Positions 5,979 through 20,794 of a stretch of 56,507 nucleotides of DNA are shown here, one piece after another. Below the pieces are notes generated by a model that searched no databases, was not told the origin of the DNA, and saw nothing but the letters and a program-made list of their open reading frames with translations. The position numbers and the translations under genes are program-made. How positions within the stretch are numbered: position 1 is the stretch's first letter; every line of letters begins with the position of its first letter. Source of the DNA: an uncultured Eubacteriales bacterium (GTDB lineage: Bacteria > Bacillota > Clostridia > Christensenellales > CAG-138); the NCBI GenBank assembly GCA_902768795.1, contig CACXMS010000008.1:1-56507 (forward strand), read 5' to 3'.

Positions 5979-6743
5979 ATGATTTCGACATTGCTTTTCG
6001 ACCTCGGCGGGACGCTGCATGACGTCCGGGGGACGGAGGAATCGCGGCTGCGGTTTGCGGCGCATCTGATCCGCCGGCTCGGGCAGTACGGGATCGTTCT
6101 CGATACGACGCCGGAGGAGTTGAACCGGCGTCTGCGCGTCAACGCGGAGGCGTATAAGAAGCGCGGCGAGCGCGATTTAAGCGAACTGCCGCAGGAAGTG
6201 ATCTGGAACGACTGGTATCTGAAGGAGTACGCGATCGGGCGCGAACGGCTTGCGCCGATCGCCGAGGAACTGAGCTTTCTGTACGATTACGAGCGCGTCG
6301 AGAACATGCGAAAGCCGCGGTTAAAGGAAACCGTGGAGGAGCTGCACGCGCTCGGCGTTCGCATGGGGATCGTTTCGAACATTATTTCCACGTCGCTCGT
6401 GCCGCACATGCTGAACGAATACGGAATCGCGCAGTATATGGAAACGGTCGTCATGTCCGCGGGGACCGGGATCCGCAAACCCGATCCGCGCATCTTTGCG
6501 ATCGCGATGCAGCGGATGGGCGTGACCGCGACGGAAACGGGGTATGTCGGCGATACGGTCTCGCGGGATGTGCGCGGCGCAAGAAACGCTAAGATGGGGC
6601 TTGTGATCCGGATCGAAAATCCCTCGATCGCGCATCGGGACGTCGGATTTACGGGCGAGGACGCGCCAAAACCCGACTTTGTGATTCAGGCGTTGGATGA
6701 AATTCCGGGGATTATCCGCCGGATCAATCATATCGAATCATAA
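5979..6743 (+). CDS. HAD-superfamily protein, paralogue 1 of 4
   Basis: 254 residues. HAD motifs: I FDLGGTL with nucleophile Asp8, II GIVSN with Ser133, III RKPDP with Lys167, IV GDTVSRD with Asp192/Asp197. The usual acid/base Asp two residues after the nucleophile (DxD) is Gly10, so ordinary phosphatase chemistry is doubtful. A helical C1-type cap lies at about 18-110. RBS GGGAGG precedes ATG 5979. It is the first gene of the operon and the most divergent of the four paralogues; the other three share a YRK/YRE...LW-x-WL cap signature. Substrate unknown; perhaps a phosphorylated or activated by-product of the pathway downstream. Confidence 0.9.
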   Translation: MISTLLFDLGGTLHDVRGTEESRLRFAAHLIRRLGQYGIVLDTTPEELNRRLRVNAEAYKKRGERDLSELPQEVIWNDWYLKEYAIGRERLAPIAEELSFLYDYERVENMRKPRLKETVEELHALGVRMGIVSNIISTSLVPHMLNEYGIAQYMETVVMSAGTGIRKPDPRIFAIAMQRMGVTATETGYVGDTVSRDVRGARNAKMGLVIRIENPSIAHRDVGFTGEDAPKPDFVIQALDEIPGIIRRINHIES

Positions 6744-6766
6744 CAGCAGAAAAGGAGAGACAGCAC

Positions 6767-7501
6767 ATGACAGACACGATCTTTTTCGACGTCGGCAACA
6801 CGCTTCGCATTGTGATCCGCGATCCGGAGTTTTCCGCCGCAGCCGAGCGCGAGCTGATGGAGCTTGTCGGCGCGACCGAATCGCACGACGAATTCTATGC
6901 CAAACTGGAACAGCGGTGGCAGAAGTACCGCAAGGAAGTCAAAAAGACGCTGCTGGACGCCGGAGAGATGGAGCTCTGGAGTCAGCATTTGCTGCCCGAT
7001 TACGATCCGGAGCGTGTCTGCGCGCACGCCGGCCGGCTGACGCGGCTGTGGCGCGATCACGACGGGCGCCGCGTCCCGCGGGACGATGTGAAATCCACGA
7101 TCATCGAGCTGGATCGCAGAGGGTACACGCTCGGCATCATCGCCAACACGATCACCGAAACGGAGATTCCCGACTGGATGATTTCCGACGGCGTCGCGCA
7201 TTATTTCAAGGCCGTGATTCTCTCCTCAAAGGTTCGCCTTCGCAAGCCGGATCCGGAGATTTATTTTCTCGCGTGCCGCGCGATCGGCAAAAAGCCGGAG
7301 CAGTGCGCGTATGTCGGGGACAACCCGATCCGCGATGTCGAAGGCACGCGCAAGGCGGGGTTTGCGAAGATGATCCGCATCGACGAGCCGGACACGATCA
7401 GAAACGAGCCGCAGGAAATCATTCTGCAGCCGGATCATACGATCACGCGCATTTCGGAGCTTTTGGACATCTTCCCGCCGCTGGACAAAAAGGAGGCATA
7501 A
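6767..7501 (+). CDS. HAD-superfamily protein, paralogue 2 of 4
   Basis: 244 residues. Motif I FFDVGNTL (Asp8) again lacks the second Asp. Motif II reads GIIANT, with Ala126 where a Ser or Thr normally binds phosphate, making this the copy with the most altered active site. Motif III RKPDP (Lys160) and motif IV GDNPIRD (Asp185/Asp190) are kept. The cap carries WQKYRKEV and MELWSQHLLP, shared in outline with copies 3 and 4. RBS AAAGGAGAG precedes ATG 6767. It ends 4 nt before copy 3. Possibly a regulatory or structural partner of its neighbours, or an enzyme with non-phosphatase chemistry. Confidence 0.9.
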   Translation: MTDTIFFDVGNTLRIVIRDPEFSAAAERELMELVGATESHDEFYAKLEQRWQKYRKEVKKTLLDAGEMELWSQHLLPDYDPERVCAHAGRLTRLWRDHDGRRVPRDDVKSTIIELDRRGYTLGIIANTITETEIPDWMISDGVAHYFKAVILSSKVRLRKPDPEIYFLACRAIGKKPEQCAYVGDNPIRDVEGTRKAGFAKMIRIDEPDTIRNEPQEIILQPDHTITRISELLDIFPPLDKKEA

Positions 7502-18861: not shown

Positions 18862-18871
18862 GGAGAAGGAT

Positions 18872-20794
18872 ATGAAAACCGTTCGTTTGACCATGGCGCA
18901 GGCATTGGTGCGCTTCCTGGAAAATCAGTACATCGCATACGACGGCGTCGAGCATCCGTTTGTGGAGGGCGTGATCATGCTGCCCGGTCACGGCAACGTC
19001 GTCGGGCTCGGACAGGCGCTCCGGCAGGAGGCGCATCGGCTCAAGGTGTGGCAAGGCAAAAACGAGCAGGGCATGGCGCACACCGCCGTTGCGTTCGCCA
19101 AGCAGATGAAGCGCAAGAAGATCATTGCGGTCACGTCGTCCGTCGGCCCCGGCGCGGCGAACATGGTGACGGCGGCGGCGACGGCGACGGCGAACAACAT
19201 TCCGGTATTGATTCTGCCGGGCGACGTGTACGCCTGCCGCCAGCCGGATCCCGTGCTGCAGCAGATCGAACAGACGCACGACCTTTCGGTCTCGACGAAC
19301 GACGCGTTCCGCGCGGTCTGCCGCTATTGGGACCGTATCGTGCGGCCCGAGCAGCTGATGAGCGCGATGATTTCCGCGTTCCGCACGCTGACGGATCCGG
19401 CGAATACCGGCGCGGTCTGCATTGCGATTCCGCAGGACGTCGAGGGCGAGGCGTACGATTATCCCGAATCGTTCTTCCGGAAGCGCGTGCATCGGCTGGC
19501 GCGGCCGGAGCCGGAGCCGGAGGCGATCGAAGAAGCCGCGGCGGTGATCCGAACCGCGAAAAAACCGCTGCTGATTCTGGGCGGCGGCGTGCGGTACAGC
19601 GAGGCGCATCGGGAATTTCGCGCGTTTGCCGAGGCGACGGGCATTCCGTTCGGAGAAACGCAGGCGGGCAAGAGCGCGCTGCTCTACGATCATCCGCTGA
19701 ACCTCGGCGGCATCGGCGTGACCGGCTGCTCGGCGGCGAACGAGATCGCAAAGGAAGCGGACGTGATCATCGGCGTCGGCACGCGCTATACCGATTTTAC
19801 GACGGCTTCGAAATGGCTGTTCCGGGACGACGCAAAGTTTGTCAACATCAATGTTTCCGCGTTCCAGGCGCTGAAGATGGACGCCGTTCCCGTGGTTGCG
19901 GACGCAAAGCGCGCTTTGCCGGTCCTTCTGAAAGCGCTCGGCGAGTATTGCGCGCCGTATACGACGGAAGTCGAAGCCGCGCGCGAGCGCTGGTTCAAAG
20001 AGCTTTCGCGCCTGCGGGGGATCGCGTACGGCGAGGGGTATGTGCCGGAAGTGAACGACGCGAACGCCGCGTCCGCGGATCGGTTCGCCGTGGATCTTGA
20101 CGCGGTGCTGACGCAGACGGCCGTGCTCGGCGCGATCAATCTTGCGATCGACCCGGACGACGTCGTGATCGGCTCGGCGGGCTCGCTGCCGGGCGATATG
20201 CAGCGCATGTGGTGCGCGCGCGGCGTCGACACGTACAACATGGAGTACGGGTATTCCTGCATGGGGTACGAGGTTTCGGGCGCGCTCGGCGTCAAGTACG
20301 CGATCGGCGACCGCGACGTTTACGCAATGTGCGGCGACGGCAGCTTCATCATGCTGCATTCCGAATTGCTGACCGCGGTGCAGGAGCACAAGAAGATCAA
20401 CATCTGTCTGTTCAACAACGCCTCGTTCGGCTGCATCAACAACCTGCAGGTCGGGCACGGAAACGATACGCTCTGCACCGAGCTGCGGTTCCGCGGCGAG
20501 GACGGAGAGCATTCGGGCAAATTCATGCCGGTGGACTTCGCCATGATCGCCGAGGGGTACGGCGCGAAGGGCTACACAATCCGTTCGCTCGACGAGCTGC
20601 GCGAGGCGATCGCGGACGCAAAGAAGATCGAAGGCCGTCCGGTGCTGTTCGACATCCGCGTGCTGCCCAAGTCGATGACCGAGGGGTACGGCTCGTGGTG
20701 GCGCGTCGGCGATACCGAGGTCTCCGAAAATCCGAAAAACCTCAGGGCATACGAAGACCATCTGAAGCACGTCAAGGACGCGAGAAAGTATTAA
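18872..20794 (+). CDS. iolD: 3D-(3,5/4)-trihydroxycyclohexane-1,2-dione hydrolase
   Basis: 640 residues, a ThDP-dependent enzyme of the acetolactate synthase fold. It opens the inositol-derived ring diketone to 5-deoxy-D-glucuronate. N-terminal IolD signature MAQALVRFLENQYIAYDG, then VTSSVGPGAANMVTAAATAT. The C-terminal ThDP motif is MCGDGSFIMLHSEL to LFNNASFGCINNLQ. The late GKFMPVDFAMIAEGYGAKGY and GYGSWWRVG are also specific. Length matches B. subtilis IolD. RBS AAGGAGAAGG precedes ATG 18872. Last gene of the operon; a terminator follows at 20811. Confidence 0.96.
   Translation: MKTVRLTMAQALVRFLENQYIAYDGVEHPFVEGVIMLPGHGNVVGLGQALRQEAHRLKVWQGKNEQGMAHTAVAFAKQMKRKKIIAVTSSVGPGAANMVTAAATATANNIPVLILPGDVYACRQPDPVLQQIEQTHDLSVSTNDAFRAVCRYWDRIVRPEQLMSAMISAFRTLTDPANTGAVCIAIPQDVEGEAYDYPESFFRKRVHRLARPEPEPEAIEEAAAVIRTAKKPLLILGGGVRYSEAHREFRAFAEATGIPFGETQAGKSALLYDHPLNLGGIGVTGCSAANEIAKEADVIIGVGTRYTDFTTASKWLFRDDAKFVNINVSAFQALKMDAVPVVADAKRALPVLLKALGEYCAPYTTEVEAARERWFKELSRLRGIAYGEGYVPEVNDANAASADRFAVDLDAVLTQTAVLGAINLAIDPDDVVIGSAGSLPGDMQRMWCARGVDTYNMEYGYSCMGYEVSGALGVKYAIGDRDVYAMCGDGSFIMLHSELLTAVQEHKKINICLFNNASFGCINNLQVGHGNDTLCTELRFRGEDGEHSGKFMPVDFAMIAEGYGAKGYTIRSLDELREAIADAKKIEGRPVLFDIRVLPKSMTEGYGSWWRVGDTEVSENPKNLRAYEDHLKHVKDARKY

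Follow-up and report, generated by a model that had tools for sequence, protein, structure and literature searches.

This report concerns an operon for myo-inositol breakdown at positions 5979-20794 of the window, by which is meant the whole 56,507-nucleotide stretch of DNA analysed (contig C8 of an assembly of 1.91 Mb and 44 contigs that is 90.4% complete). The operon consists of 14 genes, all on the + strand, with intergenic gaps of -4 to 43 bp (Table 1). In common with the classical iol pathway (Bacillus subtilis type, IolG-E-D-B-C-J-A), it has in one operon the genes iolG, iolE, iolD, and iolB, which lead to 2-deoxy-5-keto-D-gluconate (DKG). However, it is without iolC, iolJ, and iolA, references for which (taken from the relative locus L285) find no match within the window; instead it carries a split transketolase (tktN and tktC), a class II glyceraldehyde-3-phosphate dehydrogenase (GAPDH; gapII), a divergent phosphoglycerate kinase (PGK; pgk2), and a predicted malate racemase (larA). 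These five genes fill the interval between iolG and iolE. A preliminary description of this DNA had listed the same enzymes and the same absences; every gene that it named is found, on the + strand, and the absence of IolC, IolJ, and IolA from the operon is borne out.

Table 1. Genes of the operon, with the matches on which their assignment rests.
Gene or product	Positions	Strand	Match
HAD-family hydrolase 1	5979..6743	+	PF00702 72 bits
HAD-family hydrolase 2	6767..7501	+	PF00702 68 bits
HAD-family hydrolase 3	7506..8273	+	PF00702 67 bits
HAD-family hydrolase 4	8276..9052	+	PF00702 69 bits
Circularly permuted bisphosphoglycerate-independent phosphoglycerate mutase-type protein	9074..10639	+	TIGR01307, iPGM_N
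iolG, inositol 2-dehydrogenase	10683..11696	+	TIGR04380 444 bits (cut-off 355)
gapII, class II GAPDH; proposed phosphorylating D-malic semialdehyde dehydrogenase	11715..12776	+	NF003251 389 (cut-off 185)
pgk2, divergent PGK; proposed D-malyl phosphate:ADP kinase	12795..14048	+	PF00162 382 bits (cut-off 27)
tktN, split transketolase N-terminal half	14065..14907	+	PF00456 164 bits; PDB 6yak
tktC, split transketolase C-terminal half	14912..15874	+	PF02779/PF02780; PDB 6yaj
larA, predicted malate racemase of LarAH6/Mar2 family	15871..17133	+	NF052593 569 bits (cut-off 500); PDB 6d6z; GHK motif
iolE, inosose dehydratase	17153..18061	+	TIGR04379 405 (cut-off 290)
iolB, 5-deoxy-glucuronate isomerase	18070..18861	+	Pfam KduI/IolB PF04962 156 (cut-off 23.9)
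iolD, trihydroxycyclohexane-1,2-dione hydrolase	18872..20794	+	TIGR04377 899 (cut-off 715)

Sequence features of the operon enzymes

The best solved matches of TktN and TktC are the two halves of the Carboxydothermus split transketolase; the N- and C-terminal halves are adjacent, and the thiamine pyrophosphate and C-terminal domains are present. (A motif of tktC, G.D.G...NGGTH, with Asp in place of His and present in 52/52 sequences read, was considered diagnostic for the operon enzyme and dropped, because split transketolases outside the operon share it; comparison of operon and non-operon transketolases from the same genomes revealed no residue mark peculiar to the former.) The iolB product, scored as a longer open reading frame (ORF) starting at 17962, falls under its NCBIfam cut-off (TIGR04378, 92 vs 205 bits).

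GapII and Pgk2 belong to the same fold family as archaeal class II GAPDH and PGK and retain most of the catalytic residues, but both have clade-specific changes. These can be followed through a set of 109 gapII loci (given L numbers), about 104 of which are distinct, since five pairs with identical coordinates (L045/L076, L046/L081, L047/L087, L048/L090, and L049/L089) are taken as duplicates. The catalytic Cys of GapII lies in the motif SCNTTG in 108/108 sequences, and in 107/108, family f24 included, the archaeal motifs SHHGPD and VHQES are changed to [STN]HQA[VL]D and [IV]PQE[SA], respectively. Pgk2, whose best solved match is the PGK of P. horikoshii (PDB 2cun), can be compared with the PGK residues that bind bisphosphoglycerate, which are Asp23, Asn25, Arg38, His62, Arg65, Arg122, and Arg170 according to the accessible part of PMC3900376. 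When matched by motif, six of the seven are kept in Pgk2, and the position of Arg65 is occupied by Ser66 in the window protein. This position is Ser in 76/76 Pgk2 sequences outside f24 (about 72 distinct once duplicates are removed), Asp in 19/19 from f24, and Lys in P. horikoshii PGK. (The f24 set in these residue counts and in the GapII tree includes L070, a locus of family f31 at which no pgk2 was found.) Arg65 is presumably part of the 3-phosphate site of PGK, and its loss would fit a substrate in which a carboxymethyl group replaces the phosphomethyl group. Among the ordinary PGKs of gapII genomes, the sequence SHLGRP is present in 12/16 loci read and was not found by regular expression in the other 4. 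For f24, the idea that gapII-pgk2 serves as the sole glycolytic pair was rejected, an ordinary PGK being present in 6/6 f24 genomes checked.

The window LarA scores 569 bits with the model of the malate racemase LarAH6 (cut-off 500) vs 331 bits with that of lactate racemase (cut-off 460), and its best solved match is the malate racemase Mar2 (PDB 6d6z; 409 bits, the next match being at 208). The window protein was aligned with 30 of the about 60 copies that adjoin gapII; 31/31 match the LarAH6 model at E 1e-50 or better. Residues H106, H169, K179, and H195 (window numbering), which we take to be the residues that bind the nickel-pincer nucleotide (NPN) or take part in catalysis, are invariant in 31/31, as is K349. 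The last of these lies in the GHK motif and aligns with K351 of Mar2, a protein with malate racemase activity in which K351 probably binds the second carboxylate of malate (available part of PMC7583248). The window copy belongs to the same family as LarAH6 and Mar2, here within an inositol operon.

Distribution of gapII, iolC, and iolA

Two further samples were used: 396 genomes of the order (G numbers; f4, f24, and f31 are families within it and g72 a genus), and the best 80 public gapII loci of at least 421 confirmed relatives, many of them short contigs, with 34 long loci of at least 18 kb each. The preliminary description had proposed looking for the gene set in other genomes, and the set does recur, both in relatives and in the public loci. 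Around gapII in the best 80 loci, pgk2 is found in 72, larA in 60, at least one transketolase half in 48, and at least one iol gene in 51 within the DNA examined, a co-occurrence that is more than chance. Within the 34 long loci, the corresponding numbers are 33 for pgk2, 29 for larA, 29 for any iol gene, 22 for both transketolase halves, and 19 for malic enzyme, and 16/34 have pgk2, larA, malic enzyme, both transketolase halves, iolE, iolB, and iolD together. The record titles among the best 80 name Lachnospiraceae, Oscillospiraceae, Christensenella, Mogibacterium, and Spirochaetales, many from rumen or gut, and the 120 best database relatives of GapII share 86-100% identity with the window protein. 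Closer to the window, 7/8 relatives from its own family and f4 (L045-L052) have gapII, pgk2, and larA together with iol genes, in varying order; in six of those seven both transketolase halves are at the locus as well. The exception, G099, has two transketolases, neither of which is within the operon. Six relatives (G223, G061, G081, G192, G114, and G302) have one or more transketolases besides that of the operon.

A malic enzyme, absent from the gene list of the window operon, joins the cluster in relatives. It lies between larA and iolE in L045, L046, L048, and L049 (genomes G223, G099, G061, and G081) and after larA in L051 (G192), and it is present in 31 of the best 80 public loci, the search having covered the loci of relatives. 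The L046 protein matches PF00390 and PF03949 and scores 396 bits with PRK12861, under the cut-off of 1178 set for that fusion model.

In the order as a whole, gapII is present in 30/396 genomes, iolC (300-bit cut-off) in 40/396, and iolD in 67/396 (called at E 1e-150; 64 of these are above the iolD cut-off). iolD accompanies gapII in 28/30 genomes vs 39/366 of the genomes without gapII. The 67 iolD genomes divide into 28 with gapII and no iolC above cut-off, 36 with iolC only, and 3 with neither (G089, G325, and G361); Fisher's test for exclusion gives 8e-16, uncorrected for kinship, the species not being independent. No iolC above cut-off is found in any of the 30 gapII genomes. iolA, sought at E 1e-60, is above cut-off in 12/12 control genomes of the iolC type (12 of the 36 with iolC and iolD), 2/28 genomes with gapII and iolD, and 1/3 with neither gapII nor iolC. 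The genome check suggested by the preliminary description gave the same picture for the source: in the assembly, iolA has no match at E 1e-60 and iolC none above cut-off, the best PfkB kinase reaching 149 of 300 bits. At the level of loci, the references matched iolC in 0 and iolA in 2 of the 109 gapII loci (L133, 60% identity; L144, 29%), and a search for iolJ confined to the window and these loci returned no match.

Both kinds of genome occur within genus g72 (two of the gapII kind and two of the iolC kind) and within family f4 (two vs one), so a single deep split does not account for the switch. In f24 the two kinds can be compared gene by gene. The iolC-type operons L285 and L286 read transporter-iolC-iolB-iolD-iolE-iolA-iolG; the eight gapII-type iol loci L277-L284 have a similar transporter (8/8) together with iolB-iolD-iolE-iolG in seven and only iolB-iolD in L282, and neither iolC nor iolA is found in any of the eight. 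The gapII-type iol operon of f24 therefore looks like the iolC-type operon minus iolC and iolA. Across the order, gapII replaces iolC. This prediction, which the preliminary description had not made, holds, as do two others that it had not made: that the cluster of relatives includes a malic enzyme and, as judged from its profile score and best solved match, that LarA is a member of the malate racemase family.

A candidate route from inositol to malate

Taken together, these comparisons argue that the operon quite probably encodes a transketolase-type pathway for myo-inositol, which would proceed via DKG, D-malic semialdehyde, and D-malate to L-malate. DKG is HOCH2-CO-CHOH-CHOH-CH2-COO-. The stereochemistry, derived from established structures, fits: carbons 3 and 4 of DKG, counted from the CH2OH end, have the D-threo arrangement of fructose, and the aldehyde left after removal of the ketol end has the configuration of D-glyceraldehyde, which leads to D-malate. 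The reactions that follow, and the substrates of TktN/TktC, GapII, and Pgk2, we infer from the protein families. IolG, IolE, IolD, and IolB would convert myo-inositol to DKG. TktN and TktC together would then pass the two-carbon ketol fragment of DKG on to an aldose phosphate, leaving D-malic semialdehyde (OHC-CHOH-CH2-COO-); the acceptor product would be, for example, xylulose 5-phosphate, and the pentose phosphates would re-enter metabolism via the pentose phosphate pathway. Using phosphate and NAD(P), GapII would oxidise D-malic semialdehyde to D-malyl phosphate, from which Pgk2 would form D-malate and ATP, so that the pair would yield one NADH and one ATP. LarA would convert D-malate to L-malate, and in relatives the malic enzyme of the cluster would take L-malate to pyruvate and CO2. 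IolC, IolJ, and IolA would be unnecessary. The genome comparison supports the interpretation offered by the preliminary description, that transketolase cleavage of DKG to malic semialdehyde may be followed by formation of D-malate and then L-malate.

Such a route to malate has likely not been described so far. A literature search, from which subscription journals and preprints were largely absent, found no article on inositol together with malate racemase, none that links inositol to both transketolase and malate racemase, and none that links malic semialdehyde to transketolase. The Thermotoga inositol pathway, which is hydrolytic, employs IolM, IolN, and IolO, and passes via 5-keto-L-gluconate and tagaturonate, has in common with the window the lack of IolC, IolJ, and IolA, but none of its genes are seen in the window operon. 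One article listed in the search, PMC5808187, brings together myo-inositol, 2-deoxy-5-keto, and transketolase. A further likeness is to the sulfo-TK pathway of sulfoquinovose, in which the split transketolase SqwGH removes a two-carbon unit from 6-deoxy-6-sulfofructose (PMC11659671, as available in part). There, too, a split transketolase takes a two-carbon unit from a fructose-like ketose modified at C6 and leaves an acidic four-carbon aldehyde; it differs in that the substrate carries a sulfonate and the four-carbon product is isomerised and cleaved again, and the part of the article available makes no mention of GAPDH/PGK or of a racemase.

A different view, which is quite improbable, is that the GAPDH, PGK, mutase, and transketolase of the operon are ordinary enzymes of lower glycolysis and the pentose phosphate pathway and that an unlinked kinase and aldolase handle DKG. 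The operon does include a mutase-type gene, PfkB kinases are present elsewhere in the source genome, and the window transketolase is the sole one found in the assembly. However, an ordinary GAPDH and an ordinary PGK are both present on contig C14 (the PGK scoring 560 bits vs 382 for the operon copy), so the case raised in the preliminary description, that the operon enzymes are glycolytic because the genome has no other such pair, does not apply; all 15 other gapII genomes examined for it likewise have a separate ordinary PGK, in 14 cases alongside pgk2. The bisphosphoglycerate-binding Arg is lost in Pgk2, the malate racemase and malic enzyme would be left unexplained by glycolysis, and gapII and iolC exclude each other, with the best PfkB kinase of the source genome at just under half the iolC threshold (149 of 300 bits).

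It is also very unlikely that LarA and malic enzyme serve for external D- and L-malate, within a general cluster for carbon acids in which only iolG, iolE, iolD, and iolB concern inositol. Some gapII-pgk2-larA loci do lack iol genes, and LarC is missing in 10/13 genomes checked, as though the racemase step were dispensable or its cofactor supplied. On the other hand, 29 of the long loci in the best 80 have iol genes, and 27 of these carry both pgk2 and larA with gapII; the transporters in the neighbour clusters scanned against profiles (9 of the 26 that recur around gapII) are parts of ribose-type sugar ABC systems. The least likely alternative is that unphosphorylated DKG is split by an unknown aldolase to dihydroxyacetone and malonic semialdehyde, which GapII and Pgk2, as an aldehyde-oxidising pair in place of the missing classical malonic semialdehyde enzyme IolA, would convert to malonate with formation of ATP; the iolJ reference matches 0/109 gapII loci, no aldolase is among the 9/26 clusters scanned, and the transketolase, malate racemase, and malic enzyme would go unexplained.

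Several observations weigh against the transketolase route to malate. The search for an ordinary transketolase elsewhere, proposed in the preliminary description, found none in the 90.4%-complete source assembly other than a 614-residue frame that matches weakly, and the operon enzyme may consequently also be the pentose phosphate enzyme. PfkB kinases reach 190-206 of the 300 iolC bits in four gapII genomes (G061, G081, G192, and G302), and iolA is present in two others (G227 and G387). No iol gene is found in the DNA examined at 29 of the best 80 gapII loci, including 5/34 long ones. In f24 none is found in the DNA examined around gapII-pgk2, and larA is adjacent in 2/19 loci. G010, the remaining relative in the L045-L052 group, has an eroded set of iol genes and gapII only, with no pgk2, no operon larA, and no transketolase other than a weak match. 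LarA activity requires the NPN cofactor, and LarC (TIGR00299) has no match in the source genome (larB and larE were not sought); it is found in just 3/12 further gapII genomes, which gives the 10/13 noted above, and in only two (G099 and G114) of the ten genomes in which larA adjoins gapII. The cells may import the cofactor or produce it in another way; failing that, the racemase step must often be idle. Because tartrate is also a substrate of malate racemases, according to the accessible part of PMC11770544, malate is a probable rather than a certain substrate of LarA. Finally, the joining of gapII-pgk2 to other routes in L130, L147, and L108 (described below) suggests that GapII and Pgk2 are not bound to DKG alone.

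If the transketolase route is correct, rumen and gut Clostridia have another lower half of inositol breakdown, by which malate, NADH, and substrate-level ATP would be gained without the ATP cost of a DKG kinase. Two new activities would fall to proteins currently annotated as GAPDH and PGK, and malate racemases would acquire a cellular role; the available part of PMC7583248, which used malic enzyme as a genome-context clue for malate racemase, called the role in vivo open. Searches based on iolC would then overlook inositol users.

Other settings of gapII and neighbouring features

In L130 (6996-14153), gapII-pgk2-tktN-tktC is adjoined by IolN (276 bits, cut-off 245) and an IolO-like protein (273, cut-off 300) of the Thermotoga type. 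In L147 (9998-21023), the same four genes occur in a uronate setting with a short-chain dehydrogenase/reductase, a polyol/fructuronate-dehydrogenase-like protein, mannonate dehydratase, larA, and malic enzyme. In L108 (5235-13643), L138, L146, and L153, gapII is close to genes for pyruvate/acetoin-dehydrogenase-like E1 proteins, and no operon-type transketolase half was found at these four loci. The association of L130, L147, and L108 with other routes leads to a broader reading, to which an even chance is given: that GapII and Pgk2 are a new enzyme pair (D-malic semialdehyde dehydrogenase and D-malyl phosphate kinase) and make up, with malate racemase and malic enzyme, a portable malate module behind a thiamine-dependent ketol-cleaving enzyme, which would have replaced IolC-IolJ-IolA across gut Clostridia, spread to rumen spirochaetes, and elsewhere been joined to the Thermotoga-type inositol route (L130), uronate enzymes (L147), and an acetoin/pyruvate-dehydrogenase-like complex (L108).

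Four loci from spirochaete metagenome-assembled genomes (L097, L103, L113, and L114) have a gapII 87-90% identical to that of the window, with iolG on the opposite strand. Their GapIIs form one supported clade within an 81-row group that includes the window, and transfer between phyla is likely. Three of the four loci have a different LarA; the L103 copy scores 357 bits with the LarAH6 model (cut-off 500).

At the upstream end of the window operon, the four HAD genes and the mutase-type gene are each present in 21-23 of the best 80 public loci. The mutase-type protein (9074-10639) is, by its alignment, circularly permuted: its residues 13-304 correspond to TIGR01307 positions 214-504 and its residues 389-518 to the N-terminal iPGM_N domain, so that what is the C-terminal half in the ordinary enzyme here precedes a portion of the N-terminal domain. 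The motifs DGWG, NSE, D..GH, and ADHGN are retained, and the protein is full-length in 13/13 relatives read. The literature search found no article joining circular permutation with phosphoglycerate mutase.

Elsewhere in the source genome, contig C30 (500-10000; L014) carries a separate, apparent uronate-degradation cluster, in which a mannonate dehydratase-like protein, a PfkB kinase, and a uronate isomerase-like protein were recognised by eye. Downstream of the operon, at 21799-25121, are two adjacent large ORFs with, also by eye, TIR-like and leucine-rich-repeat-like text.

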